Assembly: GCF_003634935.1 (NCBI RefSeq) | Contig: NZ_RBXO01000001.1 | Location: forward strand, 5,791,501-5,855,500 | Length of the DNA stretch: 64,000 bases | Direction of reading: 5' to 3' | DNA from: Saccharothrix australiensis | GTDB lineage: Bacteria > Actinomycetota > Actinomycetes > Mycobacteriales > Pseudonocardiaceae | Shown here: positions 15,973-64,000 of the stretch, in pieces | Numbering within the stretch: the first letter of the stretch is position 1 | How the letters are laid out: the number at the start of each line of letters is the position of its first letter | Position numbers and translations under genes: made by a program | The notes under the pieces: generated by a model | What the model was told of the DNA's origin: nothing | Database searches by the model: none | Seen by the model: only the letters and a program-made list of their open reading frames with translations

Positions 15973-16026
15973 CGCGTCCGCCGGATCCGTGCGCGCACCT
16001 TGCCCGGTGCGCCGGGCACCGCCCGC

Positions 16027-28984: not shown

Positions 28985-29080
28985 GTGGGCCTCCAACGTC
29001 AGCGGATCTGCGCCAAGCCTGCCACTGTTGGACGCGGCGTGTCCGCTAGGTTGGTCACGACCCGACACACAGGAGCCGCA

Positions 29081-30472
29081 ATGGCCCAGGGCTACCGGCA
29101 AGGCGCCGATGCGGGCCTCGACCTCGACGCGTGGCGCCGCCTCGTCGACGGCTTCCACGAGGCCGTCGTCGTGCTCGACGGCGACGGTGTCGTGCGCCTG
29201 GCCAACCCGCTGGCCGCCGTGCTGTTCCCCGAGGTCAGGCCGGGTCGGCCGGCGGCCGTGGAGGGTCGTTCGCAGGACCTGGGCGGCGGCTGGACCGCGT
29301 GGTACCGGACGGTGGTGGACTTCCTCGACGAGGCGTCCCGCGAGCTGGCCGGGATCACCGACCGCACCGAGGCGTTGCGCAAGGTGGTCGAACTCGCGCC
29401 GGCGCGGCACGCCGTGCTGATCGTCCCCGGTGGCCGCGGCCGGGTCGAGTGGTGGCGGCGCGGCCCGGACGGCGTGGTGCTGACGTCCCGCACGCCGCGG
29501 CAGACCGCCGGCGCGACGCCGGGCCTGCTCGCCGTCCTGGACGGGGCGACCGCGCACCGCGAGATCACCCAGCTCGGTGATGGCGGCTGGGGCGGGGCGG
29601 CCGGCCCCGGCACGGCGGTGCCGCTGGCCGGCGGCGGCGCGCTGGTGTGCTTCGGCGGTCCGCGCGACGTCGACCTGCTCACGCGCTTCGCCGAGCGGGC
29701 CGGGACGGCGCTGGCGGTGGGCAACCGGTTCAGCGAGCAGGAGCGCACGGTCGAGGTGCTGCGGGCCAACCTGCTGCCCAGCCCGCTGCCCACCGTCGCG
29801 GGCGTCCGGCTGGCGCGGGTGTACGAGCCGGCGCACCCCCGCGCCCTGGTCGGCGGCGACTTCTACGACGTGCACCCCAGGGAGGACGGCAGCGCCGCCT
29901 TCGTGCTCGGCGACGTCGCGGGCAACGGCCTGGAGGCCGCGGTGCACTCCGGGCGGGTCCGGCAGAGCCTGCACACCCTGCTGGTCGTCGAGCAGCGGCC
30001 CGCGCAGCTGCTCACCCTGCTCAACACGGCGCTGCGGGCCGCGGGCAGCAGGCTGTTCACCACGCTCGTCGTCGGCAACCTGGTCCCCGTGCAGGCGGGC
30101 GGGCTGCGCGTGTCGCTCTCCGCGGGCGGCCACCCCGCTCCCCTGGTGCTGCGCTCCGGCGGGCGCGTGGACGAGGTGGCGGTGCACGGCGGCATCGTCG
30201 GGGTGCTGCCCGAGGTGCGCTTCCACCAGACGACCGTGACACTGGGGCCGGGCGAGACGCTGCTGCTCTACAGCGACGGCGTCACCGAGGCCCGCGCCCG
30301 CGGCGACCGCCGGAACCTGTTCGGCGACGTCCGGCTCAAGACCGCGCTCGCGGAGTGCGCCGGCCTGTCCGCGAGCGCCGTGGCCGAGCACGTGCGCCGC
30401 GTGGTCTTCTCCTGGCTGGGTCCGTCCGAGCACGACGACCTGACCGTGCTGGTCGTGCAGGCGGAGCACTGA
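29081..30472 (+). CDS. PAS-GAF SpoIIE-type serine phosphatase
   Basis: A 463-residue RsbU-like phosphatase. An N-terminal PAS-like segment ([25 protein letters not shown]) is followed by a GAF-like middle region (about 90-215) and a PP2C domain ([52 protein letters not shown]). It is expected to dephosphorylate a STAS protein on an internal cue; the STAS gene directly downstream on the opposite strand is a candidate. AGGAG lies five bases upstream of the ATG. Confidence 0.9.
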
Positions 30473-30475
30473 ATG

Positions 30476-30799
30476 TCAACTCGTCGCGTCCTCCACGGAC
30501 TCGTGGATGTGCATGACCTCGACCAGCTCGGTGAGCCGGAACAGCTTGTAGACCGAGGTCTGGAGCGACGCCATCCGGAACTGGCCGCCCGCGCCGTCGA
30601 GCCGCCGGTGCCAGTCGAGCATGAGCGACAGGCCGGTGGTGTCCATGAAGGGCACACCGCTCAGGTCGACCACGACCTGTCGGTTCGGTGTCTCCTCCAG
30701 CAGGTCGGACAGCACCGGTACGGTGTCCGCGTCCAGCTCGCCCGACACCGCGACGACCGTCCAGCCGCCGCGGACCTCACTGCGCACCTGCAAGTCCAT
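30476..30799 (-). CDS. STAS protein with Thr at the switch position
   Basis: A 107-residue anti-anti-sigma-like protein: VVAVSGELDADTVPVL and VVVDLSGVPFMDTTGLSLMLDWH. The residue usually a phosphorylatable Ser (DSSGL-type) is Thr here (MDTTGLS). Its stop lies three bases from that of the convergent phosphatase gene. It is divergent from the RsbW-like gene, whose product could be its kinase. Confidence 0.85.
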   Translation of the reverse strand: MDLQVRSEVRGGWTVVAVSGELDADTVPVLSDLLEETPNRQVVVDLSGVPFMDTTGLSLMLDWHRRLDGAGGQFRMASLQTSVYKLFRLTELVEVMHIHESVEDATS

Positions 30800-31730: not shown

Positions 31731-31780
31731 CGGCCGGCCGGTGAGCCCGGTGTGCGCGTACTACGGCCGGCCGGTGAGCC
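31731..31780. repeat. 17-base direct repeat at glycosyltransferase 3' end
   Basis: CGGCCGGCCGGTGAGCC occurs at 31731-31747 and 31764-31780, 33 bases apart. The second copy encodes the last codons of the glycosyltransferase (LTGRP) and the first lies just beyond its stop, so the gene end seems locally duplicated. Confidence 0.6.
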
Positions 31781-32930
31781 GCGCCTCCACCGCGTCCGCC
31801 GCCGCGACCGCGCCGCCCGCGCCGCGCACCACCGCGCCGAGTTCCGCTGCCGCCCGCCGGCACCGCTCGGCCGACGCCACCGCCGCCCGGAGGCCCTCGA
31901 CCGACAGGTCGGCGGGCACCACGCCGACACCCAGCTCCTCGGCCCGCTTCGCGACGGCCCGCTGCTCGGGGATCCGCGGCACGGCGACGAGCGGCACGTC
32001 GTGGTACAGCGCCTCCATCACCGAGTTCATCCCGGCGTGGGTGACGAACGCCCGCGCGTGCCGCAGCACGGCCACCTGGGGCACCCGCGCCGCCACCTCG
32101 ACGTTCGGCGGCACCTCGCCCAGTTCCGCCGGGTCGAGCCCGCCGATCGACATCACCACCTGCCAGGGCGTGCCGCCGAACGCCTCGACGCACGTCCGGA
32201 AGAAGTCGGGCCGCCGGTTGAACACCGTGCCCAGGGAGATCAGCAGCACGGGGTCGGCGGTGCGCGGCGTCCACGCCTCCCGCTCCGGCCGGCCGCCCAG
32301 CGACGGCCCGACGAAGTGGAAGCGGCCGTCGAAGCCCTCGCCCGACGGCTGGAACTCGCGCGGGATGAAGACCACGTTGGTGGGCGCGACGTAGCCGAAC
32401 ATCAGGTTCGGGTCGGCGAGGAACTCGTGCCCGGAGGCGAACTCGCCCATCGCCGCGACGGCGGCCACCAGGCGCGGGTGGGCGTGGTCGAAGGACGGCG
32501 GCAGGTACACCCGCGTCGCCGAGAAGGACTCGTTCTCGGCGAACGTGGGCACCAGCGCCACCTCGGGCGCGTCGAGCAGGTTCGCGAGCATCCGGCCGGT
32601 GAAGGTGACCGAGTCGTAGCACACCACGTCCGGCCGGTCGGCCGTGAAGTGGCCGGACAGCACGGGGAACGCGGTCCGCGCGTCGGCGAGGAAGTGCTCC
32701 AGCGTCACCGCGAGCTGGTCGGCGGTGTAGTCCGCGCGGGAGTCCAGGTCGGGCGGCAGCTCGGAGGGCAGCACGACCGGGGCCGCGCCCGCCGCCACCG
32801 GGCCGTCCACCGTGGCCGGACCGGTGGCGTAGGACACCCGGTGGCCCCGCCGGACCAGCTCCTCCACCAGGGGGAGCGTCGGGTTGACGTGACCGGGCGC
32901 GGGCGCGCTGACGAACGCGATGTGGGCCAT
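31761..32930 (-). CDS. macrolide-type (MGT/GT1) glycosyltransferase
   Basis: A 389-residue GT1 enzyme of the MGT/OleD group. The N-terminal catalytic His is in SAPAPGHVNP, and the donor-binding block is VTHAGMNSVMEALYHDVPLVAVPRIPEQ. It probably attaches a sugar to the polyketide made by the adjacent synthase; because MGT enzymes also inactivate macrolides by glucosylation, self-protection is an alternative. The start lies five bases after the stop of the KAS III-P450 gene, so it is the last gene of the PKS operon as seen here. No sugar-biosynthesis gene is in the window. Confidence 0.85.
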   Translation of the reverse strand: MAHIAFVSAPAPGHVNPTLPLVEELVRRGHRVSYATGPATVDGPVAAGAAPVVLPSELPPDLDSRADYTADQLAVTLEHFLADARTAFPVLSGHFTADRPDVVCYDSVTFTGRMLANLLDAPEVALVPTFAENESFSATRVYLPPSFDHAHPRLVAAVAAMGEFASGHEFLADPNLMFGYVAPTNVVFIPREFQPSGEGFDGRFHFVGPSLGGRPEREAWTPRTADPVLLISLGTVFNRRPDFFRTCVEAFGGTPWQVVMSIGGLDPAELGEVPPNVEVAARVPQVAVLRHARAFVTHAGMNSVMEALYHDVPLVAVPRIPEQRAVAKRAEELGVGVVPADLSVEGLRAAVASAERCRRAAAELGAVVRGAGGAVAAADAVEARLTGRP

Positions 32931-32935: not shown

Positions 32936-35182
32936 TCAGTCCTCCAGGATCACCGGCAGTGCCTTGTGGCCGTTGGTGAAGAACGATCCCAGCGGCGCGA
33001 GCCCGTCGGCGGGCACGGCGAGGCGCAGCTCCGGGAACCGCCCGAACAGCGCGGGCAGCGCCGTGGTCGCCTCCAGGCGCGCCAGCGGGCTGCCCAGGCA
33101 GAAGTGCACGCCGTGGCCGAACGCGAGGTGGTCGCGCCGCGAGGGGCGCGTCACGTCGAACCGCTCGGCGTCCGGGCCGTGCCGCGCGGGGTCGCGGCCG
33201 GCCGCGCCGAACGACACCAGGATCGCGTCGCCCCGCGCGATGCGCGTGCCGCCGACCTCGACGTCCCGCACCGCGTACCGCAGCGGCAGGTTCGGCACCG
33301 GCGCCTGCCGGCGCAGGGTCTCGTCCACCACGTCGTCCCAGGACGCGGTGCCCGCGACGACCAGGCCGAGCTGGGACGGGTGGGTGGCCAGGGCGTGGAT
33401 CGCGTGGTCGAGGAGGTTGACCGTGGTCTCGAACCCGGCGCTGATGGTCAGCAGCAGCGTGTCCAGCAGCTCCTGCTCGCCCAGCCGCGCGCCGTCCTCC
33501 CGCCGGGCGGCGATCAGGTCGCTGGTCAGGTCGTCGCCGGGCCGGTCGCGCTTCGCCGCGACCAGCTCCTTGAGCACCAGGTACAGCTCGCCGGACGCCG
33601 CGTGCACGCCCTCCGGGTCGGCGTCGAGGCTGAACACGGCCTCCACCAGCCGCCGCAGCTCCCGCCCCACCTCGGCGGGCACGCCGAACAGCCCGCCGAT
33701 CACCCGGATCGGCAGCGGGTGGGCGAACTCGGCGCGCAGGTCCACCACCTGCCCGGCGGGCCGCGCGGCGAGCCGCGCGACCAGCTCGGCGGTGATCGCC
33801 TCGACCCTCGGCCGGGTCGCCTCGACGCGGCGCGGGGTGAACGCCTTCGCGACCAGGCCGCGCAGCCGGGCGTGGTCGTCACCGTAGGCGGTGAACATGT
33901 TCTTCATGGCCACCCACGGGACCAGCGGCCAGTCCGGCGGGATCTCGCCGTTGCGCCACTTCGGCCAGTGCCGGTTCGCGTCCTTGGAGACGTCCGGGTG
34001 CAGCAGCAGCTCCCGGACCGCGTCGTGGCCGGTGACCGCCCAGGCGTGCACACCGCCGGGCAGCTCGACCGGCGTGACCGGGCCGCGCGCCCGCAGCCGC
34101 GCCGCCTCGCCGAAGATGTCCGCGCCGGACGGGTCGATGACGTACCGGTCCACGGGCGCGGGTCCGGGCTCGGCCGCCACGTCGAGCACGGTCGGCCGGG
34201 GGCGTGGCGGTTCGCCGACCTCCACCAGGGCGGCGGTGAACCGGGAGCCCATGCCCAGGCCCACCACCATGATCGTGTCGCCGGGGCGCAGCGAGTCGTC
34301 GTGCAGCAGGTGGTCCAGGCCCAGGAGCTGGTCGCACGGCCCGACGTGGCCGAGTTCGCGCAGGAACGACCACGTGGTGCGGTCCAGCGCGACGCCGAGC
34401 GGTTCCAGCACGACCACTTGGAGCTGGGCCAGCCCCAGGCCGGTGACGACGAACCGGGTGATGTCCGGCAGCGCGGTGTTCGCCTCCTTCGCGGCCTGCT
34501 CGACCGCGCCGACCAGCGCCTCGCTCATCAGCGTCAGGTACGGCGCGAGCCCGGTGACCTCGATCGGCGTGCGGTCGCGGTGCCCGAGCGGGTCCGGGAT
34601 CGTCGGCGTGGCCAGCACCTCCATCTGCGTGGCCGAGTTGTTGGCGGTGGCGACCAGCCGCGCCCGGCCGCCCTCGCGGGTGAGCACCGCCGACGCCGCG
34701 CCGTCGGCGAGGAAGATGCCGATGGTGGGCTGCCAGCGCTCCCAGCGGGGCGGCCGGAACCGCGACGTGGCGGTGACCAGCGTGGCCGTCGCGGACCGGT
34801 CGGCGACCAGGTGCGCCGCCGCGGACTGGAGCGCGGCCGACCCGCCGTTGCTGGTCGCCTCCACCTCGTAGACCAGGGCGTGGCCCAGGCCGAGCACCCG
34901 TTGCAGGTGGCAGGACGACGCCATGTGGTCCTGCGAGTCCATCTGGGCGTAGGCGGCCATGCCGATGTCCGCGCCGGTGAGGCCCGACTCGCGCAGCGCG
35001 CCGATGGCTGCCCGCACCGCCATCGCGTGCTCGGTGACGTCTTCGGAGCTGGTGAACGACGTGAAGTCGGACAGCGCGAGCAGCCGCCGCATGGTCTCGG
35101 TGTCCGGCACGGCGTCGGTGGCCGGCGTGCGCGGCGGCAGGTAGTGGCCGGTGCCCCCGATGAACACGTCATCCCAGATCAT
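32936..35182 (-). CDS. KAS III-like acyltransferase fused to cytochrome P450
   Basis: A single uninterrupted 748-residue frame joins two enzymes. Residues 1-325 are KAS III/FabH-like ([10 protein letters not shown] start, [14 protein letters not shown], late [14 protein letters not shown]). Where FabH has its catalytic Cys there is Ser111; the usual His (as in NxR) and Asn positions read LGLAQLQ and GHVGPCD, so the triad is not canonical. Residues about 345-748 are a complete P450: HARLR (C-helix), AGFETT oxygen groove (582-587), ExxR at 621-624 and [10 protein letters not shown] with heme Cys 695. The ATG overlaps the terminal PKS stop by 14 bases. Roles in acyl transfer and oxidation of the polyketide are inferred. 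Confidence 0.9.
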
Positions 35183-38100
35183 GGCCGTCCCTTTCCCTCA
35201 GTTCGGAGAGCCCGGCGCCGTAGCCGGCGAAGTCCAGCAGCCACGTGCTGATCGCCAGCGCGGTGGACGCGGAGTGCTGTTCCAGCACGGTGAAGTGGTC
35301 GCCCGGCACGGTCAGCGCTTCCTGGGCGGTCGTGGACAGCTCGGGCCACGCGCGCTTGCGGGTGCCGACCAGGAGGACCGGCGCGCGCACCGGGCGCGGT
35401 GGCCGCGCGAGGTCGAGGTAGCGCCCGGTGGCGAGGAGCCGGTCGTCGTCGATCGGCCGCAACTGGTGCTCGGCGGCCAGCATCCCGTCGAGCACGCCCG
35501 GCAGGTCGTCCGGGAAGCCGTCGATGAGCACCACCGCCGCGAGCGGTTTCCCGTGGTCCTCCAGGTGGTGCGCCGTGGCGAGGGCGAGCCACGCGCCGAT
35601 CGAGCGGCCCACCAGGACCGGGGTGTCCACGGTGGCCGCCGCCGCGGCCAGCGCGTCGACCAGGTCGGCCGCCGAGGACGGCAGCGGGTCGCCCGCGAAG
35701 CCGGGCAGCGGCAGCACGGTCACGTCGCGCGTCGCCGCCAGCGCCGCCGCGAACCGCCCGTACTCCTCCACCCCCGAGAACGCGAGCGCCGACGGCAGGC
35801 AGACCAGGGACGGCCGCAGGAAGCCCTCGGCGAGCCGCACCGGCTCGACCACCGGCGGACCGAGGCGGCCCAGTCGCGCGGCGGTCGAAAGCAGGTCGAC
35901 GCCGTCCTGCGCGCGGTCGGCCGCGATCGCCTTGCGCAGCAGCGCCTCCATCGGGCCGGCGACCCGGTTGCCCGTGCCGCACAGGCGGCCGTGGAGGTGG
36001 TCGGCCAGCCGGTCCGGTGTCGGGAAGTCGAACACGACGGTCGCCGACAGGTGCAGGCCGGTGGCGGCGTTGAGGCGGTTGCGCAGGTCGATCGCGGTCA
36101 GCGAGTCCACGCCGTGGTCGCGGAACGACTGCCGCGGGTCCTCGGTGATCCGCGTGGTGTGGCCGAGGACGGCGGCGCTGTGCGCGTTGACGACCTCCAG
36201 CACCAGCGCGCGCTGCTCGGGCTCGGGCAGGGCCGCCAGGCGCCGCGCCAGGTCCGCCGGCTCCGCCCGTGCCGCCTTCGGCCGCACCAGGCCGCGCAGC
36301 AGCGCCGGCGGCGTGCCGATCGCGCCGAGGTCGAGGCGGATCGGTGTCAGGACCGGCCGGTCGGCGGCGAGGCCGAGGTCGAACAGGGCCAGCGCCTGGT
36401 CGGTGCCCAGCGGCAGCATCCCCGTCCGGGCCAGCCTCCGGTGGTCGGTCGCCGTCAGGTGGCCCGTGGTGCCGCCCGCCTCCGCCCAGTAGCCCCACGC
36501 CAGCGAGACGGCGGGCAGCCCCTCCGCGCGGCGGTGGCGCGCCAGGGCGTCGAGGAAGGCGTTGGCCGCTGCGTAGTTGGCCTGGCCCGGCGCGCCGAAC
36601 GTGGCCGCCGCCGAGGAGAACAGCACGAAGGCCGCCAGGTCCCGGTCCCCGGTCGCCTCGTGCAGGTGCCACGCGGCGTCCACCTTGGGCCGCAGGACGC
36701 CGGTCAGCCGCTCCGGTGTCAGCGTGGCCACCACGGCGTCGTCCACGACGCCGGCCGCGTGCACGACCACGCTCAGGTCGGGGATGCCCGCGACCAGCGA
36801 CCGCACCGCCGTCGGGTCGGTGACGTCGCACGCCACGAGGGTGACCGCCGCGCCCAGTTCGGCGCGGAGTTCGGCCGCGCCCGGCGCGCCCGGTCCCCGG
36901 CGGCTCGCCAGCACGACGTGCGGCGCGTGGTGCCGCGCGACGACGTGCCGCGCGACCAGGCCGCCCAGCGCGCCGGTGCCGCCGGTGATCAGCACCGTGC
37001 CGTCGATGGCGGGCGGTGCGCCGTCCACGGCGGACCGGACGAGCCGGGGCGCGGTGGCCCGGCCCGAGTCGAGCACGACGTGGGTTTCGCCGTCGGCGAT
37101 CGCGGTCCGCACCGCGCGGTCCAGCACCCGCGCGGACGCCGCCGAGCCGTCGGTCTCGACCAGCACGATCCGGTCCGGGTGCTCGGTCTGCGCGCTGCGC
37201 AGGAAACCCCGCGCGGCGGCCGACGGCAGGTCGCCGCCGGTCACCACCACCAGCCGCGCGTCGCCGCCGTCGGACAGGAACGCCCGTGTCACGTCGAGCA
37301 GCCGCCGGGTGGCCGCGTGCGTCCCCTCGACCGGGTCGTCGCCGCCGGTGACCTCGTGCACCACGACGTCGACCGGCGGCGCGTCCCGCACGGCCAGTGG
37401 CGCCGGTTCCACCGCGAACAGCGCGTTGCGGGGCCGGGCGGTGGCGGGTCCGGGCTCCACCGGGCGCAGGACCAGCCGGTCGATCGAGGCGACGGGCGCG
37501 CCGGCGGTGTCGGTGAGCCGGACCGAGCAGGTGTCCGGCCCGGTCGGCGTGAGGACGACGCGGACCGCCGCCGCCGTGCCGGTGACCGAGACGCCGGCGA
37601 AGGAGAACGGCAGCCGCGCCGCCGCCGCGCCGGGTGCTGCGGTGCTCCCGGTGAGCAGGGTCAGCGGCTGGATGGCCGCGTCGAGCAGCGCCGGGTGGAT
37701 GCCGAACCCGTCGAGCGCGACACCGGGGAACGTCACCTCGGCGTGCAGGTCGTCACCGTCCCGCCAGATCCCGGTCAGCCCCCGGAACGTCGGCCCGTAG
37801 TCGTAGCCGGCTCCGGCGAGGGTGTCGTACAGGCCGGTGATGTCCACCGGCCGCGCGTCGGCGGGCCGCGGCCGCGCCTCCCGCCGGACCGGGGGTTCCG
37901 GGCTCAGCGCGCCGGTGGCGTGCCGCGTCCAGTCGTCCGGATCGGCCGAGGTGCGGGAGTGGATCGCGAGCGGGCGGCGGCCCGCGTCGTCGGGCGCGCC
38001 CACGGTGACCTGGACGTGGACGGTGTCCGCCGCGAGCGGCAACGGCGATTCCAGCACCAGCTCCTCGACCACCGGGCACCGCGCGTGCGCGCCGGCCTGG

Positions 38101-40825
38101 ACGGCCAGCTCCACGAAACCCGTGCCCGGCAGCAACGCCGACCCGTGCACGGTGTGCTCGCCCAGCCAGGGGTGCGCGGACTTCGCCAGCCGGCCCGTCG
38201 CCACCAGGCCCTGGTCGTCGGGCAGCCGCACCACCGAGCGCAGCAACGGGTGGTCCACCGCGTCCAAGCCGTCACCGGGCGGCGGCGGCACCAGCCAGAA
38301 CCGCTCCCGCTGGAACGGGTACGCCGGCAGCTCCACGTCGTGCGCGCCCGCTCCCCCGGTGTCCGGTGCCCGGTCCGCGCCGTCCACCCACAGGCGCGCC
38401 ACCGCCGCCACCAGGCGTTCGGGTTCGTCGTGGTCGCGCCGCATGACCCCGGACGGCACCAGCACCGGGTGCGGCCCGATCTCCAGGAACCGGGTGGCGC
38501 CGTTGGCGCGCAACCACTCCACGCCGTCGCCGAACCGCACCACCTCGCGGACCTGCCGCGCCCAGTAGCCGGGCGCGCCGGGGTCGATCCGCCGTCCCTC
38601 CACAGTGGACACGAAGGGGATTTCCGGCTCGCCGAAGCCGATCTTCGCGGCGACTCGCTCGATCTCCGCGATCATCGGTTCCATCCGCGCCGAGTGGAAC
38701 GCGTGGCTGACCGCCAACCGCCGCGTTTCCCGGCCGCGCGCCGACCAGAGCGCGGCGACCTCCAGCACGGCGGCCTCGTCACCGGACACCACGACCGCGT
38801 CGGGCCCGTTGACCGCCGCGATGCACACCCCGTCACCCAGCGACACCGCCACTTCCGCCTCAGTGGCCCGCACCGACACCATCGCGCCGCCGGACGGAAG
38901 CTCACCCATCAACCGGCCACGCGCCGAAACCAGCGCACAGGCGTCCTCGATGCCCAGCACACCCGCGACATGCGCGGCGGCCACCTCACCCACCGAATGC
39001 CCGATCACATAGTCCGGCCGAAAACCCAGGCTCTCCACCAACCGGAACAACGCGACCTGCAACGCGAACAACGACAACTGCGTGAAACAAGTCCGGTCCA
39101 ACACGCCATCCGGGTCCGTGAACAACACCTCACGAGACAGGTCCAGCAACCCGCACACCTCGTCCAACGCCCGCGCGAACACCGGAAACACCTGGTACAG
39201 GCGACGACCCATCCCCACCCACTGCGAACCCTGACCCGAGAACACGAACGCCGTCTTCCCCGGCTGCGCGACACCGGTGACGAGGTCCGGCGACTCCGTC
39301 CCGGCCACCAGCGCGTCGAGCGCACCGGTGACGCCGGCCGCGTCGCGCCCGATCAGCACCGCCCGGTGCGCGAACCGGGTCCGGGCGCTCAGCGCCCGCG
39401 CGACCGCCCGCCGGTCGAGGTCGGCCACCGCCCGCAGCCGCTCCCCCTGTGCCCGGAGCGCTTCCGGCGAGGCCGCCGAGAGCGCCCACGGCACCGGTCC
39501 GCCCGCGTCCGCGCCAGGCGGCGGCCCGACCACCGGTTCCGGGCCCTGTTCGAGGACCAGGTGCGCGTTGGTCCCGCTGATCCCGAAGGCCGACACGCCC
39601 GCCCGGCGCGGTCGGCCGGTCTCCGGCCACGGCGTGGCCTCCGCGAGCAGCCGCACGTTGCCGGTCGACCACTCGACGTGCGGTGTCGGCGCGTCGACGT
39701 GCAGGGTGCGCGGCAGCCTGCCGTGCCGCATCGCCATGATCATCTTGATGACGCCGGCGATGCCCGCCGCCGCCTGGGTGTGCCCGAGGTTCGACTTCAC
39801 CGAACCCAACCACAGCGGCTCACCGCGATCCTGACCGTATGTCGCCAGCAACGCCCGCGCTTCGATCGGATCGCCTAGCGCCGTTCCGGTGCCGTGCGCC
39901 TCCACGGCGTCCACTTCGGACGCTCGCAGCCCGGCGTTCGCCAGCGCTTGCCGAATCACGCGCTCCTGCGAAGGTCCGTTCGGCGCGGTGAGGCCGTTCG
40001 ACGCGCCGTCCTGGTTCACCGCCGAACCACGCACCACGGCCAGCACCCGGTGACCGTTGCGCCGCGCATCGGACAACCGCTCCAGCACCACCAGGCCGAC
40101 GCCCTCACCCCAGCTCGTGCCATCGGCCGACGCGGCGAACGGCTTGGCCCGCCCGTCCTCCGCCAGTCCGCGCTGGCGCGAGAACTCGACGAAGCCGGCC
40201 GGTGTCGCCATCACCGTCACGCCGCCCGCCAACGCCAGCGAGCACTCCCCCGACCGCAACGCCTGCGCCGCCAGGTGCACCGCCACCAACGACGACGAAC
40301 ACGCCGTGTCGACCGACACCGCCGGCCCCTCCAACCCGAGCAGGTAGGACACCCGCCCCGACGTCACGCTCGTCGCCGTCCCGGTCGACAGGTACCCCTC
40401 GACGTCACGGGCCACCTGCTCCACCCCGCCCGCGTACCCGGAGGTGAAGATCCCGGTGAACACGCCGGTCGCGCTGCCCCGCAACGACGTCGGGTCGATC
40501 CCGGCGTGCTCCAACGCCTCCCACGCCGTCTCCAGCACGAGCCGCTGCTGCGGGTCCATCGCCAACGCCTCACGCGGCGAGATCCCGAAGAACGCCGCGT
40601 CGAAACCCGCCACGTCGTCCAGGAAGCCCCCGGCACGGGTGTACGACGTGCCCGGCCCACCGGCCGGGTCGTACAACCGATCGACATCCCAGCCCCGGTC
40701 GCTCGGGAACTCCCCGATCGCGTCGACCTCGTCCGCCACCAGCCGCCACAGGTCGTCCGCCGACGCCACCCCACCGGGATAGCGGCAGCCGATGCCCACG
40801 ACGACCACCGGGTCGTCGGCCACCG
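35169..40825 (-). other. PKS module T3: KS-AT(mal)-DH-KR-ACP-TE
   Basis: AT has GHSVGE and SHAFHS, the malonyl signature. DH ([16 protein letters not shown]) and KR ([17 protein letters not shown]) are intact; there is no ER. ACP reads [11 protein letters not shown] terminal thioesterase follows with [10 protein letters not shown] at the nucleophile elbow, Arg replacing the usual His of GHSxG, and GDHFT near the catalytic His. Predicts a 2,3-unsaturated acid/lactone carboxyl end. Confidence 0.85.
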
Positions 40826-43800
40826 CGACACCCGCCGGGGCGTCGACCCGCCGCCGCGCACCGACGACCACGTCCCGCAGGTGCTCGGCCAACCGCTCGG
40901 GCGTCGGGTGGTCGAACACCATCGTCGCCGACAACCGCGTGCCAACGGCCGCCGACAGCCGGTTCCGCAGCTCCACCGCCGTCAGCGAGTCGAACCCCAG
41001 CTCCTGGAACGGCCGGTCCAGGGGCACCGCCGCGTCGTCGGCGTGACCCAGCACCGCCGCCGTGTGGACGGCCACCAGCCGCGCCAGCGCCGCCAACCGC
41101 CCGGTCTCCGGCAGGTCGGCGAGCGCGAGCGCCGAGTCCGCCCGCCGGACCGCCGCCCGCCCGCTCGTCAACGACCGGAAGACCGGTCGATCACCCAACG
41201 CCGACGCACGCAGCCGTGCGGTCACGACCACCGGGTCGGCGGCCGACTGACCCGCGTCGAACAGCGCCAGCCCCTGCGCCGAGGACAGCGGCAGCAGCCC
41301 GGACCGCTTCAGGCGTCGGTTGTCCTCTTCGGACAGACCTGCGGTGAGGCCGGTGCGCTCGGCCCAGGGCCCCCACGCCAACGACACGGCGGGGAGCCCC
41401 TGTGACCGCCGATGCGCGGCCAACCCGTCCAGGTAGGCGTTCGCGGCGGCGTAGTTCGCCTGCCCCGGCGCGCCGAACACCCCGGCCGCGGACGAGAACA
41501 ACACGAACGCCCGCAGGTCCAGCCCCTGCGTCAACTCGTGGAGGTGCTGTGCGGCCAGGGCTTTCGGTTCCCACGTGCGCGCGAGCCGTTGCGGGGTCAG
41601 CGATTCCACCACGCCGTCGTCGACCGCGCCGGCCGCGTGCACGACCCCGGTCAGCGGGTGCTCGGCGGGAACACCGGCCAGCAGCCGGGCGACCGCGTCG
41701 CGGTCCGCCACGTCGCAGGCCACCACCGAGACGTCCGCGCCCAGCTCGCGCAGCTCCGCCACGTCCGCCACGCCCGACCGCCCGGCCAGCACCAGCCGCC
41801 GGACGCCGTGCGCGACCACGAGGTGCCGCGCGACGAGTCGGCCCAGTACGCCCGTGCCGCCGGTGACGAGCACGGTGCCCCTGGGGTCGAGCGGGGCGGG
41901 CACGGTCAACACGATCTTGCCGACGTGACCGGCCTGGCTCATGTGCCGCAACGCTTCCCGCGCCCGCCGCACGTCCCACGCGCGCACCGGCAGCCCGTCC
42001 AGGTCGCCGTCGGCCAGCAGCGCGACCACCGCGCGCAGGATCTCGCCCAGCCGGTCCGGACCCGCCTCCGCCAGGTCGAACGCCCGGTAACCGGGCACGC
42101 CGTCGCGGAGGTCCGCCTTGCCCATCTCCACGAACCGGCCGCCCGGCGCGAGCGACCGCAGCGACGCGTCCACGAACGCGCCCGTCAACGAGTTGAGCAC
42201 CAGGTCCACCCGGCCGAAGCGCTCGGCGAACTCGACCGTGCGGGACGACGCGATGTGGTCGTCGTCCAACCCGAGGGCGCGCAACGCGTCCCACTTGCCC
42301 GGACTGGCCGTCGCGAACACCTCCGCGCCCCACAGCCGCGCCAGCCGCACCGCCGCCATGCCGACACCACCCGCGCCGGAGTGGACCAGCACCCGGTCAC
42401 CGGGCCGGAGCCGGCCCAGGTCCCGCAACGCGTACCAGGCCGTGAGGAACGCGACCGGCACCGCCGCCGCCCGCGGGAAGCCCCACCCCTCCGGGATCGG
42501 CACGAGCACGCGGTGGTCCGCCACCGCCACCGGCCCGAACGCGCCCGCCAGCAGGCCCAGCACCCGGTCGCCGGGCCGCAGCCCGGTCACCGCCGCGCCG
42601 ACCTCCACGACCACGCCCGCGCCCTCGCCGCCCAGCGGCGCGCGTTCCGGGTAGACGCCCAGGGCGATCAGCACGTCGCGGAAGTTCACCCCGGCGGCCC
42701 GCACGGCGACCCGGACCTCGTGCGGCGCCAACGGCTCGTCCGGGCAGGACGTGAACGCCAGGTCCGCCAGGCTGCCGCTCCCGGCCGCCGTGAGCCGGCC
42801 ACCGACCGCCTCGGCCGACGTCCGCACGAGCCTCGGGACGTAGGCCGCACCGCCTCGGACGGCGACCTGGTCCTCGTCGCCCACCGCCGACGGCAGCGGA
42901 CCGTCGGTGTCCACCAGCACGAACCGACCGGGGTGCTCGGCCTGCGCCGACCGCACCAGGCCCCACACCGCCGCGCCGACCGGGTCGGCCACGCGGTCAC
43001 CGGGCACGGCCGCGACCGCGCCGCCGGTCCGCACGACGAGCCGGTCGCCGTCACCGGCCAGGAAGTCCTGCACCAGCGCGAGCGCTTCCGCCACCGATCC
43101 CGGTGAGACCACCGCCGACGGCAGCGGTCCGCCCCCGGCCACCAGGGGGACCCAGTCCACGCGGAACAGCGCGTCGTCACCGCGCGCCAGGGGGCGCGTG
43201 GTGAGACCGCCGATGCTCACGACCGGTGCGCCGGTCTCGTCGGTCAGCTCCACCCGGTGCACGCCGTCGGCGGTGGTGTCGAGCCGCACGCGGGCCCTGG
43301 TGACGCCGCGGCGGTGGACGGTGATCCCGGTGAGGGAGAACGGCAACCGCGCCTCGCCGGTGTCGTCGGCCAGGCACGCCAGGGGTTGCAGCGCGGCGTC
43401 GAGCAGCGCCGGGTGCACGCCGAACCGCGCGGCGTCGTCGACCTCGACCTCGGCGAACACCTCGCCGCCGCGCCGCCAGGCCGCCCGCACGCCCCGGAAC
43501 GCCGGCCCGTACTCGTACCCGGCCGCCGCCAGCGCGTCGTACAGCCCCTCGACCTGCTCCGCGCCGGCCGGGGGCCACTCGGTGGTCGCGCGCGTCACCG
43601 CCGGCTCCCCGCCCAGCGAGCCGGCAGCGTGCCGCACCCAGCCGCCGTCGCCGCGTGAGCGGATCTCCAGCGACCGCCGTCCCGTGCCGTCCGGCGCGCC
43701 GACCGCCACCTGGACCGCGACCGCGCCGTCCTCCGGCAGCACCAGCGGCGCTGCCAGGACCAGCTCCTCCACCACGTCACCGGCGTGCGCCGCGAGTTCC

Positions 43801-46800
43801 ACGAACACCGCGGCGGGCAGCAGCACCGCTCCCTCGACCACGTGGTCGGCCAGCCAGGGGTGGGTGGTCGGGGAGAGCCGCCCGGTCCACACCGTCCCGC
43901 CGTCGCCCAGCTCGACCGCCGCGCTCACCAGCGGGTGGTCCACCGCGTCGAGCCCGGCCGCCGACACGTCGCCGACGCCGCCGGGGGTCAGCCAGAACCG
44001 CTCCCGCTGGAACGGGTAGGTGGGCAGCGACACCGCCGGCAGGTCCGGGAACGCCCACCGGACGTCGACGCCGCGCTCGAACAGCCGTCCCGCCGCCGCC
44101 AGGAAGCCCGCCGTCCCGCCCTGGTCGCGCCGCAGCGTGCCGAGCGCCACCGCGTCCTGCCCCGCCAGCGCGGGCACCAGCACCGGGTGCGGGCTGATCT
44201 CGACGAACAGGCCGTCGCCCGCCAACTCCCGCGCGGTGTCCGCGAACCGCACCGGCTCCCGCAGGTTCCGGTACCAGTAGGCGGCGTCCAGCCCGTCGCC
44301 GAGCACGCCGCCGGTCACGGTGGAGTGGAACGCGACACCGCCGGTTGCCGGGCGCACGTCGGCGAGGTCGGTGAGCAGCCGGTCGCGGATCGCCTCGACC
44401 TGCGGCGAGTGGGCCGCGTAGTCGACCGGGAGCCGCCGCGCGCGGATGCCGTCCGCCGCGCACGCCGCCAGCAGCTCGTCGAGGGCGGTGTCGTCGCCGG
44501 ACACCACGACCGCGTCGGGCGCGTTGAGCACGGCGACGGTGAGCCGGTCCGCCCACCGCGTCAGGTACTCGACCGCGCGGTCCTCCGACAGCGCCACGGA
44601 AACCATGCCGCCGCGACCGGCGATACCGGTCAACGCCTTGGCGCGCAGCGCGACGACCTTCGCCGCGTCCTCCAGCGACAACAACCCCGCCACGTGCGCG
44701 GCGGCGATCTCGCCCTGCGAATGCCCGACCACCGCATCCGGCACCACACCGTGCGACCGCCACAGCTCCGCCAACCCGACCATCATCGCCCACAACGCAG
44801 GCTGCACCACGTCCACCCGGTCCAGCGAACCGCCGGTCAACGCCTCCACCAACGACCAGTCCACGTACGGCGCCAACGCTTCCGCACACGCGTCCACACT
44901 CGCCCGGAACACCGCCGACTCCGCGTACAGCTCCCGCCCCATCCCCACCCACTGCGCACCCTGACCGGGGAACACGAACACGGTCCGGCGGGGGCGTCCG
45001 ACCGCCACGGGCTCGACGGAGCCCAGGCCCGCCAGCAACTCCCGGCGGTCGCGGCCCACCACCACCGCCCGGTGGTCGAACCTCGCCCGGCCCGACGCGA
45101 GCACCCGGCCCACCGCCGCCGGGTCGAGTTCCGGCCGCGCCGCGACGAAGTCGCCCAACCGCCGCGCCTGCGCCCGCACGGCGGCGTCCGTCCGACCTGA
45201 CAGCACCCACGCCACCGGGCCGTCCGCGTGCCCGGCGGGCGGCTCCTCCGCCGGGGCCTGCTCGATGACCAGGTGCGCGTTGGTGCCGCTGATCCCGAAC
45301 GACGACACACCCGCCCGGCGCGGCCGACCGGTCGACGGCCACGGCACCGGTTCGGTCAGCAGCCGCACGTTGCCGCTGTCCCACGCCACGTGCGGCGTCG
45401 GCTCCGCGACGTGGAGGGTGCGCGGCAGGACACCGTGCCGCATGGCCTGCACCACCTTGATGACACCCGCGACACCGGCGGCGGCCTGCGCATGCCCGAT
45501 GTTCGACTTCACCGAACCCAACCACAGCGGTGCCGCCCGATCCTGCCCGTACGTCGCCAGCAGCGCCTGCGCCTCGATCGGGTCACCCAACGCCGTCCCG
45601 GTGCCATGCGCCTCCACGACGTCCACATCGGACGGTGCCAGCCCCGCATCGGCCAACGCCTGCCGGATCACGCGCTCCTGCGCGGGACCGTTCGGCGCGG
45701 CCAGGCCGTTCGACGCCCCGTCCTGGTTCACCGCCGAACCCCGCACCACCGCCAACACCCGACGACCGTTGCGCCGCGCGTCCGACAGCCGCTCCAGCAG
45801 CACCAGGCCCGCGCCCTCGGCCCAGGCCGTGCCGTCCGCCGACGACGAGAAGGACTTGCACCGGCCGTCCGCCGCGAGCCCGCGCTGCCGCGAGAACTCC
45901 GTGAAGCCGACCGGGGTGGCCATCACCGTGACGCCGCCGGCCAGCGCGAGCGAGCACTCACCGGACCGCAACGCCCGTGCCGCGAGGTGGATCGCGACCG
46001 ACGACGACGAGCAGGCGGTGTCCAGCGACACCGCGACGCCCTCCAGCCCCAGCAGGTAGGCGATCCGCCCGGACGTCACGCTGGTCGCCGCGCCCGTGCC
46101 GACGTACCCCTCCACGTCACCCGACGCGCCCGCGCCGTAGCCCGACGACCAGATCCCGGTGAACACCCCGGTCGCGCTGCCCCGCAACGACGTCGGGTCG
46201 ATCCCGGCGTCTTCCAGCGTCTCCCACGCCGTCTCCAGCAGCACGCGCTGCTGCGGGTCCATCGCCAACGCCTCGCGCGGGGAGATGCCGAAGAACGCGG
46301 CGTCGAACCCGGCCACGTCGTCCAGGAACCCGCCGGCGCGGGTGTAGGAGGTGCCCGGATGGTCCGGGTCGGGGTGGTACAGCCCGTCGACGGGCCAGCC
46401 CCGGTCGGTCGGGAAACCGGTGATCGCGTCGACGCCGTCGGCGACGAGCCGCCACAGGTCGTCCGGCGAGCGCACGCCGCCGGGCAGCCGGCAGCCCATG
46501 CCGACGATGACCACCGGGTCGTCCCGGACGGCGGTCGGCGCGGCGGCGGCGCTCTCGCGGCGCGTGCCGCCGATCTCCGCCAGCAGGTGCTCGGCGAGGC
46601 GGCGGGGCGTCGGGTGGTCGAACGTCACCGTCGCCGGCAGCCGCAGGCCGGTCGCGACGCCGAGCCGGTTGCGCAGCTCGACCGCCGTCAGCGAGTCGAA
46701 ACCCAGGTCCTTGAACGCCGTCTCGGCGCGGACCGCGCCGGGGTCGCGGTGCCCCAGCACGATCGCGGTGTGGGTGGCCACCACCTCGACCGCCGCCGCG

Positions 46801-49800
46801 AGCCGTTCGGCCGGCGGCAGCGACCGCAGCCGGTCGACCACCGCGCCCGTCCGGCGGCGCGCCACCCGCCGCGCGCCGACCAGGTCGCGCAGCGCACCCG
46901 GCACCGCGCCGGCGCGCGCCACCGCGGCGAAGTCGAGCGCGACCGGCGCGAGCACCGCGCGGTCCACGGCCATCGCGGCGTCGAACAGCTCCAGCGCGTG
47001 CCCGGTGCCCAACGGCACCACGCCGGACCGGCGCAGCCGCGCGTGGTCGGTTTCCGCCAGGTGCCCGGTCATCCCGCTGGACTCGGCCCAGTGACCCCAC
47101 GCCAGTGAGGTCGCGGGCAGCCCCAGCGAGCGCCGGTGCACGGCCAGGGCGTCCAGGAACGTGTTGGCCGCGCCGTAGTGCGCCTGCCCCGGACTGCCCA
47201 GCAACCCGGCGGCCGACGAGAACAGCACGAACGCCTTCAGGTCGCGGGTCAGCTCGTGCAGGTGCCAGGCCCCGCGCACCTTCGGCGCGAACACCCGCTC
47301 GACCTGGTCCGGCGTCAGGGTTTCCAGCACGCCGTCGGCCAGCACGCCCGCCGCGTGCACGACGGCGCACAGCGGCCGGTCGGCGGGGACGGAGGCGAGC
47401 AGGCCGGCCACGTCCGCTCGGTTCGCCAGGTCGCAGGACGCGACGGTGACCCGCGCGCCCATCGCCGTCAGCTCCTCGCGCAACGCCTCGGCGCCACCGC
47501 CGCGGCTCGCCAGCAGCAGGTGCCGCACGCCGTGCTCGCGCACCAGGTGGCGCGCCAGCACGCCGCCGAGCGTGCCCGTGCCGCCGGTGACCAGCACGGT
47601 CCCGTCGAGGTCGGCCGGGAGGCCGAGGACGATCTTGCCGATGTGGTTGGCCTGGCTCATGTGCCGGAACACGTCCACCGCGTCCCGGACCCCGCGCACC
47701 TCCAGCGGCAGCGGCGTGAAGCCGCCCTCCGCGAAGGCCGCCAGCACGTCGGCCAGGATCTCGCCCAGGCGCTCGGGCCCGGCGTCGGCGATGTCGAACG
47801 CCGTGTAGGTGATGTCGTCGCGCTCCACGGTGTCGCGGACGTCGGTCTTGCCCATCTCCACGAACCGGCCGCCGGGCGCGAGCAGCCGCAGCGACGCGTC
47901 CACGAACTCGTCGGCCGCCGAGTCGAGCACCACGTCCATCGGCGGGAACCGCCGCTCGAACTCCACGGTCCGCGACGACGCGATGTGGTCGTCGGCGAAA
48001 CCCATGCCGCGCAGGGTGTCCCACTTCGCCGGCCCGGCGGTGGCGTACACGTCCGCGCCGAGCCGCCGGGCGAGCTGGACCGCCGCCAGGCCGACACCGC
48101 CGGTCGCCGCGTGGATCAGCACCCGGTCGCCGGGCCGGGTGCGCCCGAGGTCCACCAGGCCGTACCAGGCGGTCAGGAACGCCACCGGCACCGCCGCCGC
48201 CCGCGCGAACGACCAGCCGTCCGGGATCGCCGCCAGCAGGCGGTGGTCCGCCACCGCCACCGGACCGAACGCGCCGGGCACCAGGCCCATCACCCGGTCG
48301 CCGGGCCGGAAGGCCACGCCGGGGCCGACGTCGAGGACGACGCCCGCGCCCTCGCCGCCCAGCAACGCCGCGCCGGGGTAGACGTCCAGCGCGATCAGCA
48401 CGTCGCGGAAGTTCAGCCCGGCCGCGCGCAACGCGATCCGGACTTCGCCCGGACCCGGCGGCTCGGCGAGTCCGGGCCGGGCCACCAGCGCCAGGTCGTC
48501 GATGCCGCCGGTGCCGACGTCCTCCAGCCGCCACGGCCCGTCCGGCGGGGTGAGCGGTCGCGCCACGCGCGTGAGCCGGGGCACCCGCGCCACACCCCCG
48601 CGCACCGCGAACTCCGCCTCGTCGGAGCCGGCCACCACCGGCAGCGCGCAGTCGCCCTCGGCGTCGGCGTCGACCACCGCGAAGCGGCCGGGGTGCTCGG
48701 CGACGGCGCCGCGCACCAGGCCCCACACCGCCGCGTGCGCGAGGTCCACCTCGTCACCGGCCCGCGCCACGACCGCGCCGCGCGTCACGACGACGAGCCG
48801 CTTCCCGTCCGTGCCGAGGTGCGCCCGCATCAGGTCCAGCACGTGCAGGGCGCACGTCCGCGCCGCGTCCGCCGGGTCGCCGGTCGTCACGGGGACGTGG
48901 TGCGCCACAAGGTCGCCGGTGTCGCCGATGACCGGGTCGGGCAGCGGAACCCAGTCGAGCTGGAACAGGCTGTCCGGCCGCACGTCCGCCGCGCGCACCG
49001 CCAACGACCCGATCCGCGCCACCGGGCGGCCGTCGCCGTCGGCGATCGCCAAGCGGTAGGCGTCCGGCCCTGCGGCGGTCAGCCTCACCCGCAGCAGGCG
49101 CGCCCGCGTGGCGCGCACCGACACCTCGCGGAACGCGAACGGCAGCCGTGCCGCGTCCGCCGCGCCGGTTTCCCCGCGCAGCAGGGAGACGGCGTGCAGC
49201 GCCGCGTCCAGGGCGGCCGGGTGCAGGGCGAACCGGTCACCCTCGGGCACCTCGACCTCGGCGTACACCTCGTCGCCGCGCCTGCGCGCGGCCGTCACGC
49301 CCTGGAACACCGGCCCGTACTCGTACCCCGCGGCGGAGAACGCGTCGTAGAGGTCCGTGACGTCGACGGCGTCGGCGTCGGCGTCCGGCGGCCACGTCCA
49401 CTCGTCCCACACCGGTTCCCCGGCCAGCACACCGGTCGCGTGCCGCACCCATTCGTCGTCGGTCCGGGAGTGCACGGCCACGGACCGGCGGCCGTCCTCG
49501 TCCGGGCCCACCGCCACCTGGAGGTGCGCGACGCCGTCGCCCACGACGAGCGGCGCCTCCAGCACCAGCTCGTCGACCACCGGCGCGCCGACGTGGTCGC
49601 CCGCGTGGGTCACGAATTCAAGGAAGACGGTGCCGGGTAACAGGACCACGCCCTGCACGGCGTGGTCGGCGAGCCACCCGTGCGTCCCGAGCGACACATT
49701 GCCGCTCAGCACCGCGCCGCCGTCCGGCAGCGCCACGGCCCCGGTCAGGACCGGGTGGTCCCCGGACCCCGCCGCCGCCGGGCGCAACCAGAACGGCCGG

Positions 49801-52409
49801 CGCTGGAACGGGTACGTCGGCACGCCGTCCGCCATCGGTCCGGCCGGCATCCGCCAGTCGGCGGTGACACCGCGGACGTGCAGACCCGCCAACGCGGTCG
49901 CGAAGTCGCCGTCGCGCCGCAGCGTGCCCGACACGACCGCGTCCACCGTCCCCTCGATCGCCGACACCAGCACCGGGTGCGGGCTGACCTCCACGAACGC
50001 GCCGTGCCCCGCCTCGCGCAAGGCACGGGTCACGCGGTCGAACAGCACCGGCTCACGCAGGTTGCGGTACCAGTAGTCGGCGTCCACGAGGTCGACCGGC
50101 GCACCGGTCACCGTGCTGTGGAACGGAATCCGGGCCGGACGCGGCGCGATGTCGGCCAGCGGGCGCAGCAACCGGTCCCGGATCGGCTCGACCTCGGCGG
50201 AGTGCGCCGCGTAGTCCACCGGCAGCCGCCGCGCGCGGATGCCGTCCGCCTCGCACGCGGCGAGCAGTTCACCGAGGTCCTGGTCGTTGCCGGACACCAC
50301 GACCGCGCCGGGCGCGTTGACCACGGCCACGGTCAGCCGTCCCGCCCACCGGGCGAGTCGGTCGTGCGCCTGGTCCTCCGACAGCGCCAGGGACACCATG
50401 CCGCCCCGACCCGCCAGCGCCACCAGTGCCCGGCTGCGCAGCGCGACGACCTTCGCCGCGTCCTCCAGCGACAACAACCCCGCCACGTGCGCGGCGGCGA
50501 TCTCACCCTGCGAATGCCCGACCACCGCGTCCGGCACCACACCGTGCGACCGCCACAACTCCGCCAACCCGACCATCATCGCCCACAACGCAGGCTGCAC
50601 CACATCCACGCGATCCAGCGAACCGCCGGTCAACGCCTCCACCAACGACCAGTCCACGTACGGCGCAAGCGCTTCCGCACACGCATCGACCACCTCGCGG
50701 AACACCGGCTCCGACCCGTACAGCTCCCGCCCCATCCCCACCCACTGCGCACCCTGACCGGGGAACACGAACACCGTCCTGCCCACGTCGGCCGCGGTAC
50801 CGGTGACGAGCCCCGGCGCGTCCACGCCGTCGGCCAACGCCCGCAACGCGGCCGAATCACCCACGACGGCACGGTGTTCGTGCACCGCACGGGCCGCCAG
50901 CGCACGCCCGACCTCCGCCGAGGTCAGCTCGGGACGCGAGTCGACGAACGCGCGCAACCGGGCGGCCTGCGCGCGCAACGCCTCCGGTGTCCGCGCGGAC
51001 AGCGGCCACGGCACGGGGTCCGGCGAGCCCTCCTCCCGTTCCTCCTCCGGGGCCTGCTCGATGATCACGTGCGCGTTGGTGCCGCTGATCCCGAACGACG
51101 ACACACCCGCCCGGCGCGGCCGACCGGTCGACGGCCAGGGCGTCGCCTCGGTCGCCAGGAGGATGTCGCCTGCCGACCAGTCGACGTGCAGGGTGGGCGC
51201 GTCGATGTGGAGGGTGCGTGGCACGACGCCGTGCCGCATGGCCTGCACCACCTTGATGACACCCGCGACACCGGCGGCGGCCTGCGCATGCCCGATGTTC
51301 GACTTCACCGAACCCAACCACAGCGGTGCCGCCCGATCCTGCCCGTACGTCGCCAGCAGCGCCTGCGCCTCGATCGGGTCACCCAACGTCGTCCCGGTGC
51401 CATGCGCCTCTACAAAGTCCACTTCGGACGGTTCGAGCCGTGCGCCCGCGAGCGCCTGCCGGATCACGCGCTCCTGGGACGGCCCGTTGGGCGCGGCCAG
51501 GCCGTTGGACGCCCCGTCCTGGTTCACCGCCGAACCCCGCACCACCGCCAACACCCGGTGGCCGTTGCGCCGCGCGTCGGAAAGCCGTTCGAGCAACAGC
51601 AGACCGGCACCTTCGCCCCAGGCCGTGCCGTCGGCGGCCTCGGCGAACGGCTTGACCCGACCGTCCGGCGCGAGGCCGCGCTGGCGCGAGAACTCCACGA
51701 ACCCCTCGGGCGTGGCCATCACCGTCACGCCGCCGGCCAGCGCCAGCGCGCACTCGCCCGCCCGCAGCGCCCGCGCGGCGAGGTGGATCGCGACCAGCGA
51801 CGACGAGCACGCGGTGTCGACCGACACCGCCGGGCCCTCCAGCCCCAGCGCGTAGGACACGCGCCCGGACGTGGCGCTGGTCGCGATGCCGGTGGCCAGG
51901 AAGCCCTCCAGGTCGGGAGGTGGCTGCGCGCCGTACCCGGAGGACCACACGCCGGTGAACACGGCCGTCCGGCTGCCCTGGAGCGCCGTCGGGTCGATGC
52001 CGGCGCTCTCGAAGGTCTCCCAGGCGGTTTCCAGCAGCACGCGCTGCTGCGGGTCCATCGCCAGGGCCTCGCGCGGCGAGATGCCGAAGAACGCCGCGTC
52101 GAACCCGGCCGCGTCGGTCAGGAAACCGCCCTCGCGGACGTAGGTCGTGCCCGGCCGGTCGGCGTCCGGGTCGTAGCGCACGTCCCAGCCCCGGTCGGTC
52201 GGGAAACCGGTGATCGCGTCGACGCCGTCGGCGACGAGCCGCCACAGGTCGTCCGGCGAGCCGACGCCGCCCGGGTACCGGCAGCCCATGCCGACGATCG
52301 CGATCGGCTCGCGGGCCGCCTCCTCGACCTCGGCCAGCCGCCGGCCCATCAGCCGCAGGTCGGCGGTGGCGCGCTTGAGGTAGCTGCGGAGCTTCTGTTC
52401 GTCGGACAT
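35169..52409 (-). CDS. terminal modular type I polyketide synthase with TE
   Basis: A complete 5,746-residue PKS. The N-terminus ([19 protein letters not shown]) is a coiled docking helix. Domains (residue of a key motif): KS (Cys about 200), AT (GHSQGE about 633), DH (916), ER (1433), KR (1610), ACP (1906); KS (2133), AT (2563), DH (2853), ER (3343), KR (3516), ACP (3806); KS (4038), AT (4471), DH (4753), KR (5145), ACP (5435), TE (5600). It extends and then releases the chain, probably by lactonisation. The ATG lies two bases after the stop of the upstream PKS gene. The frame stays open to 53456, but that part is in the upstream gene. It acts in the cytoplasm, phosphopantetheinylated on each ACP. 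Confidence 0.95.
38681..39250 (-). repeat. AT block nearly identical to 55187-55757
   Basis: The malonyl-AT coding DNA of module T3 and of the last module of the upstream PKS is almost base-for-base the same over roughly 570 bases, far more alike than the surrounding KS and DH DNA. This indicates recent gene conversion or module duplication. Confidence 0.75.
40825..46530 (-). other. PKS module T2: KS-AT(mmal)-DH-ER-KR-ACP
   Basis: KS active-site text is [16 protein letters not shown] and VDYAAHS indicate methylmalonyl. [12 protein letters not shown] and [23 protein letters not shown] with Tyr in [17 protein letters not shown] with VDD and [19 protein letters not shown]. Fully reducing, like T1. 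Confidence 0.85.
46530..52409 (-). other. PKS module T1: KS-AT(mmal)-DH-ER-KR-ACP
   Basis: KS has DTACSSS and the two His motifs. AT carries GHSQGE and VDYAAHS, close to the methylmalonyl signature (YASH). DH has [10 protein letters not shown] and LDAALH. ER has [15 protein letters not shown] and keeps the Tyr (DVYPG) linked to 2S methyl branches. KR has [11 protein letters not shown] in place of LDD, and the Ser/Tyr pair (HYGAAN). The ACP Ser is in [10 protein letters not shown]. Predicted to add a fully reduced methyl-branched unit. Confidence 0.85.

Positions 52410-52411: not shown

Positions 52412-64000
<11,589 letters not shown>

Follow-up and report, generated by a model that had tools for sequence, protein, structure and literature searches.

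Organization of the locus

The window, that is, the whole stretch of DNA analysed (64,000 nucleotides of Saccharothrix australiensis contig NZ_RBXO01000001.1, positions 5,791,501 to 5,855,500), contains a gene in which a KAS III-like domain and a cytochrome P450 are encoded as one protein. The gene lies between modular polyketide synthase (PKS) genes and a glycosyltransferase gene, and the features of the locus are as follows.

31761..32930, minus strand: MGT-family macrolide-type glycosyltransferase (TIGR01426, 353 bits against a cut-off of 260)
32936..35182, minus strand: KAS III-like/P450 fusion protein, 748 amino acids (open reading frame, domain matches, kept in 20 genomes)
32939..34147, minus strand: CYP154-type P450 domain, residues 346-748, with AGFETT, ExxR and heme Cys695 (alignments, motifs)
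34148..34216, minus strand: inter-domain linker, residues 323-345 (variable; disordered at 331-343 in the model)
34217..35182, minus strand: KAS III-like domain, residues 1-322, with Ser111, Gly248, His279 and Asp284 (alignments, predicted structure)
35169..52409, minus strand: PKS2, with modules 5 (DH-ER-KR), 6 (DH-ER-KR) and 7 (malonyl-type AT, DH-KR) and TE
52412..64000, minus strand: PKS1, C-terminal part in the window, with modules 3 and 4 and part of module 2

The PKS2 stop overlaps the fusion start by 14 bases, and a few bases separate the fusion stop from the start of the glycosyltransferase. PKS1 extends to approximately position 10986 of the adjoining locus, L049, which holds a KSQ-AT-ACP loading module and module 1. 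Together with the fusion and the MGT glycosyltransferase, the two modular PKS genes, which close with TE, make up a tight cassette that is kept across two families.

Reading frame and domain composition

The open reading frame runs from 35182 to 32936 on the minus strand, with an ATG start and without an internal stop. PF08541 (KAS III C-terminal domain) was matched at residues 233-321 (E 9.5e-11) and PF00067 (P450) with E 8.7e-26, the KAS half was aligned with DpsC over residues 5-321 (E 1.2e-36), and the P450 half with CYP154A1 over residues 347-746 (E 2.2e-125). The thiolase (KAS III) fold covers the whole KAS domain. Characteristic motifs are found at 110 (TSNGG, containing Ser111) and 278 (GHVGPCDQ) in the KAS half, and at 582 (AGFETT), 621 (ETLR) and 688 (a ten-residue motif) in the P450 half. 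The sequence-only reading of this locus, according to which a single frame joins a FabH-like domain to a P450 with its motifs, is thereby borne out.

The same reading had named a sequencing frame error as a finding that would undo it. The chance that two separate genes were joined through a sequencing or assembly error is negligible, as an identical fusion layout occurs in 20 genomes of two families, and nothing was found in favor of such an error. Third-position GC is 0.94-1.00 in each 50-codon block across the junction, and this evenness gives no hint of a frame shift. Recurrence of the full-length fusion in 20 distinct genomes excludes a sequencing artefact. An internal start for a separate P450 was considered and rejected: in codons 319-360 of 12 fusion copies, a GTG about 5 bases after GGAGG is present in a single copy (L052), the other 11 have no spaced GGAGG/start pair, and one of these (L053) lacks any start codon in that stretch. 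Separate translation of the P450 from the fusion gene is therefore unlikely. The AlphaFold2 model, built with 52 sequences, has a mean pLDDT of 86 and two well-formed domains; given a pTM of 0.58 and the disordered linker (331-343), it describes each domain and not their placing relative to each other.

Distribution and conservation

The full fusion occurs in 20 distinct genomes, 11 of Saccharothrix and 9 of Streptomycetaceae, and is thus a conserved enzyme and not a lone oddity. Full-length copies are present in 11 of 25 Saccharothrix genomes, the window's own included, the other ten being 82-86 % identical to it. A family sample yielded 11 of 390 genomes at E <=1e-160, all Saccharothrix and the same 11 as in the genus set. 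An even sample of the class gave the full fusion in 1 of 394 genomes, the window's own; the second match there (G664) is the P450 half, and the absence of the fusion from all 341 genomes of that genome's family has little bearing on the Streptomycetaceae. Named genomes were scanned with patterns covering, among other features, GH-G--D and the GG--A stretch that follows the nucleophile. Positions 248 and 111 were in no pattern, and the best 80 loci of at least 230 relatives were used. Twelve of these 80 are fused, 3 from Saccharothrix and 9 from Streptomycetaceae (Streptomyces, Kitasatospora and Actinacidiphila); the 3 Saccharothrix loci are identical in DNA to copies of the genus set and were counted once. 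Among plasmid records 1342 matches were obtained, none covering 80 % of the protein (the 20 matches listed are to the P450 half), and viral contigs gave no match to the fusion.

The 19 other copies are 79-86 % identical to that of the window over the whole protein; identity is highest in the KAS half (86-93 %), lower in the P450 half (75-82 %) and lowest in the linker (29-68 %). Simple dN/dS estimates for seven pairs ranged from 0.08 to 0.34 in the KAS half and from 0.23 to 0.36 in the P450 half, values that indicate purifying selection on both; the KAS half had the lower value in 6 of the 7 pairs and the higher in one. A tree was computed from the 20 fused KAS halves plus 28 stand-alone relatives, picked from 68 to spread over genera; in it the fused halves form one clade (support 100/99). 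Closest to this clade are two proteins from Saccharopolyspora (53-54 % identity) and, on a long branch, a row from Mycobacterium simiae (34 %). Together with these three outgroups the fused halves make a set of 23 that is supported at 100/100, and the order of the outgroups, at 79/14, is not settled.

A P450 gene is present in the fetched DNA of 18 of the 68 non-fused KAS loci, some of which end at contig ends, and is too common there to be a sign of partnership. In the two Saccharopolyspora loci (L063 and L064, approximately 10001-18180) the surroundings of the stand-alone KAS relative include two P450 genes and a large protein of the ThiF type, to which L064 adds an AMP-binding enzyme. The second P450 of these loci carries FGHGIHRCPG, with the heme Cys present, and neither locus shows a PKS domain within the DNA retrieved.

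Active site of the KAS III-like domain

The catalytic triad of FabH is Cys-His-Asn. The fusion has Ser111, Gly248 and His279 in these places, and Ser111, Asn112, Gly248, His279 and Asp284 are invariant in all 20 fused copies. A serine in place of the catalytic Cys had been pointed out beforehand and is indeed present in every copy; its standing as an odd feature is lost, since position 111 is Ser in 26 of the 28 stand-alone relatives (Cys in 2), and Ser111 is therefore not a mark of the fusion. The His and Asn regions had also been called non-canonical. Here the telling loss is Gly248 at the place of the FabH/DpsC His, the stand-alone relatives having His (20/28), Asn (4/28), Gly (3/28) or Ala (1/28), and His279 and Asp284 match the ChlB3/CerJ pair. 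Conservation of His279 and Asp284 among the stand-alone rows is partly a product of selection, because the scan pattern contained GH-G--D.

DpsC, ChlB3 and CerJ are the nearest solved sequences to the KAS half, DpsC being the best by E-value. Gly248 aligns with DpsC His266, where CerJ has Val and ChlB3 has Asn, and His279 and Asp284 align with His296 and Asp301 of ChlB3. According to the available sections of PMC9573744, ChlB3 works with Cys113-His296-Asp301, CerJ shares the His-Asp pair, and the site of DpsC is Ser-His-His, with His266-His297. In all 20 copies, the fusion combines the His-Asp pair of the CerJ/ChlB3 type with Ser111 in place of their Cys nucleophile; it thus has the Ser nucleophile of the DpsC type, with Gly248 in place of the second catalytic His. 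The KAS half resembles CerJ and ChlB3 in its KAS III fold, in the place of the His-Asp pair, in the missing DpsC-type His and in belonging to a natural-product pathway, whereas CerJ and ChlB3 are single-domain enzymes with a Cys nucleophile and known acyl donors. As Ser replaces the Cys nucleophile, the KAS half is likened to them in its working and is not classed as a member. With DpsC it shares the Ser nucleophile and the GH-G--D motif, but DpsC keeps His266 and is without a P450 fusion.

The same sections of PMC9573744 report that CerJ C116S lost malonyl transfer and was inactive, so that a Ser in a CerJ-like site does not automatically make an acyltransferase. They also place DpsC among condensing enzymes and in places count all homologs but CerJ as condensing, for which reason the split between acyl transfer and condensation is not sharp. 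Gly248 together with His279 and Asp284 favors acyl transfer over condensation, and the Gly at 248 in the three stand-alone relatives counts against this reading. At the two places by which acyltransferases and condensing enzymes are told apart the KAS half looks like an acyltransferase, and its nucleophile is like that of DpsC, so the earlier suggestion of an acyltransferase-like domain fits both its nearest relatives and its site residues. A Claisen condensation that joins a ketide to the product by a C-C bond would accord with a family and fold shared with FabH and DpsC, but is very unlikely with Gly248 and His279 where FabH has His and Asn.

Cytochrome P450 domain

The acid-alcohol pair of helix I (E585-T586), the ExxR residues E621 and R624 and the heme ligand C695 are present in all 20 copies, and the P450 half thus has the checked motifs of an active enzyme. 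Structurally, its model is best matched by CYP154A1 (55 % identity) and CYP154C1 (48 %), with a TM-score of 0.92 on target length. P450 families are named by an identity of >40 % to a named member, and the 55 % identity to CYP154A1 over the whole domain places the P450 half in CYP154. CYP154A1 and CYP154C1, which it resembles over its whole length, stand alone, without a fused acyltransferase. By its title, the CYP154C1 structure is that of a monooxygenase functionalizing the macrolide ring, and the available text of a P450 survey links CYP154C1 with macrolide biosynthesis and CYP154B1 with that of tylosin (PMC7369989). A macrolide-type substrate may be suggested for the P450 half by analogy, the one precedent being CYP154C1. 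P450BM3, in the excerpts available, is likewise a natural fusion of a P450 with a second enzyme domain; its partner is an electron-supplying reductase, whereas that of the fusion is a KAS III-like domain, with no joined redox partner.

Polyketide synthase genes and predicted product

The domain order over PKS1 and PKS2 is: loading module; module 1, KR; module 2, DH-ER-KR; module 3, DH-KR; module 4, DH-KR with malonyl-type AT; module 5, DH-ER-KR; module 6, DH-ER-KR; module 7, DH-KR with malonyl-type AT; TE. The AT types were assigned from motifs that we take to be diagnostic, and in the two Streptomycetaceae sets the GHSxG pattern used for this is missing from the module 1 AT. The TE of PKS2 carries a GxSxG motif. 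The order is the same in Actinacidiphila and another Saccharothrix; Streptomyces eurythermus (JCM 4206) has the same order except for module 6, whose absence coincides exactly with a stretch of ten N. In the four clusters read (S. eurythermus without module 6), all extension modules other than module 1 are DH-KR or DH-ER-KR, and the loading module is of the KSQ type (AQSS or GQSS) in 4/4.

The predicted product, C22H36O2, is a 16-membered macrolactone in a very reduced state; it would carry alkenes at 2, 8 and 10 and lack a free hydroxyl. The alternative is a 15-hydroxy acid with no other free hydroxyl. A macrolactone of this kind would need an oxygen from the P450 before glycosylation or O-acylation, and the P450 therefore probably acts before both, a conclusion that is weaker if the TE frees the open acid or if a DH is inactive. 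No compound could be assigned to the cassette; tianchimycin was considered as its product.

DpsC is the starter enzyme of daunorubicin and primes a type II PKS. As DpsC is the closest solved relative by E-value and has a Ser nucleophile, the KAS domain might similarly prime the PKS with a starter acyl unit. We consider this quite improbable: the type I PKS next to the fusion has its own KSQ-AT-ACP loading module, as do all four PKS1 sets read, so that KAS III priming is not needed; DpsC His266 is Gly248 in the fusion; and there is no evident reason for a starter enzyme to be fused to a P450.

Upstream of PKS1, nine called genes encode a peptidase, STAS, Nramp, Mn catalase, a BTAD regulator, Ppx/GppA, MEDS/ATPase, an alpha/beta hydrolase and a HAD protein. 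The BTAD-domain (SARP-like) regulator (L049:16177-16986, plus strand), a few kb upstream of PKS1, is a candidate pathway regulator.

Glycosyltransferase and conservation of the cassette

The solved proteins nearest to the glycosyltransferase are oleandomycin glycosyltransferase (2iya), YjiC and CalG2, and like these it is of the MGT kind, lying above the TIGR01426 cut-off. Against the macrolide-inactivating and OleI models it scored 242 and 234 bits, so far below their cut-off of 700 that a tailoring and a self-protection role are not separable. All 12 named fused loci (among the best 80) have a glycosyltransferase downstream of the fusion, and three pieces are conserved together here: the fusion (79-83 %), the glycosyltransferase (70-74 %) and the final 700 residues of PKS2 (61-69 %). 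Flanking genes called in four clusters have no common protein at E 1e-20, with the exception of one P450 gene next to PKS1 that S. eurythermus shares with Actinacidiphila. This extra P450 is divergent from PKS1 (L137:10630-11835, minus strand, with a matching place in Actinacidiphila L140-L142), and is 93 % identical between them; the flank ORFs called in the two Saccharothrix clusters contain no relative at E 1e-20. A carbamoyltransferase lies just past the glycosyltransferase in two Saccharothrix, on opposite strands (L053:13675-15651, plus; L145:11974-13950, minus), and none was recognised among the window neighbors scanned.

Neighbors were scanned with Pfam over 20 window stretches (including the glycosyltransferase and part of PKS2) and the nine genes upstream of PKS1. 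Neither a deoxysugar gene nor a special acyl-CoA gene or separate ACP was recognised among them, and in the latter respect the cassette differs from systems of the ChlB3 (6-methylsalicyl) type.

Proposed function

The fusion is proposed to be a bifunctional tailoring enzyme, in a compact pathway of the macrolide type, for P450 hydroxylation followed by O-acylation of the macrolactone or its glucoside, an interpretation that we hold at slightly better than even chances. The modular PKS (KSQ loading module, seven modules and TE) would make the reduced 16-membered macrolactone or the 15-hydroxy acid, which the CYP154-type half would hydroxylate. The KAS half would use Ser111, with His279-Asp284 as the activating pair, to accept an acyl group from a CoA thioester (alternatively from an ACP), and would then pass it to an oxygen, either the hydroxyl made by the P450 or a sugar hydroxyl after action of the glycosyltransferase. 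The fusion would keep the hydroxylation and acylation steps together. The cluster context fits the earlier suggestion of acylation and oxidation of the PKS product; the sugar that had been named as an acceptor is one possibility only, with one MGT glycosyltransferase and no deoxysugar gene recognised in the scanned neighbors.

The KAS domain could instead be non-catalytic, docking on the PKS or ACP, or holding a dimer, and so bringing the P450 to the chain or fresh macrolactone. KAS III enzymes bind ACPs, and the fusion gene overlaps the end of PKS2 in the window and adjoins the TE end in all 12 named fused loci. ChlB3 is a dimer in the available sections of PMC9573744. Docking is nevertheless unlikely, as the invariance of Ser111, His279 and Asp284 in 20/20 copies and the stronger selection on the KAS half in 6/7 pairs go beyond what it asks.

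A further alternative to O-acylation with a common acyl donor is that the KAS domain moves a PKS-made chain from the ACP to the P450-made hydroxyl, giving an ester-linked polyketide or a dimer. ChlB3 takes its acyl group from an ACP (PMC9573744, available sections), and the neighbors scanned gave no other recognisable acyl donor, whether within the cassette or adjoining it; but the PKS already has a TE with GxSxG, common CoA esters are always available as donors, and we give such chain transfer little credence. It is similarly improbable that the full sequence of events holds in which the P450-made hydroxyl is esterified by the Ser-His-Asp half of the same polypeptide, the substrate is passed between the two sites and the acyl group comes from the pathway's own PKS. 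If it did, the product would be an ester-linked polyketide of a kind so far undescribed.

For the proposed two-step tailoring enzyme, both halves are of known kinds, and no description of their combination was found in the open literature searched. A KAS III-P450 fusion is not named among the listed titles and abstract starts of open PMC literature, outside of which many subscription papers lie, and the words "fusion" and "fused" are absent from the available main text of PMC7369989. The conserved fusion next to an almost unchanged PKS in Saccharothrix and Streptomycetaceae marks out a group of clusters with a predictable aglycone, and the protein is a ready candidate for a catalyst that oxidises and then acylates. 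A Ser-His-Asp site in it would show how a condensing fold becomes a serine-nucleophile O-acyltransferase.

Other genes in the window

Elsewhere in the window, a hybrid sensor kinase of 1973 amino acids (24548-30469, minus strand) has nine HAMP stretches and GAF, HisKA, HATPase and receiver domains, and is adjoined by a small STAS protein (30476-30799). Two intradiol dioxygenases, one with a protocatechuate 3,4-dioxygenase beta N-terminus, lie beside a lyase with an adenylosuccinate-lyase C-terminus (17150-19803, minus strand), likely an operon for aromatic breakdown. A lysine/ornithine N-monooxygenase and an ABC transporter ATPase at 11119-13850 (minus strand) suggest siderophore genes.
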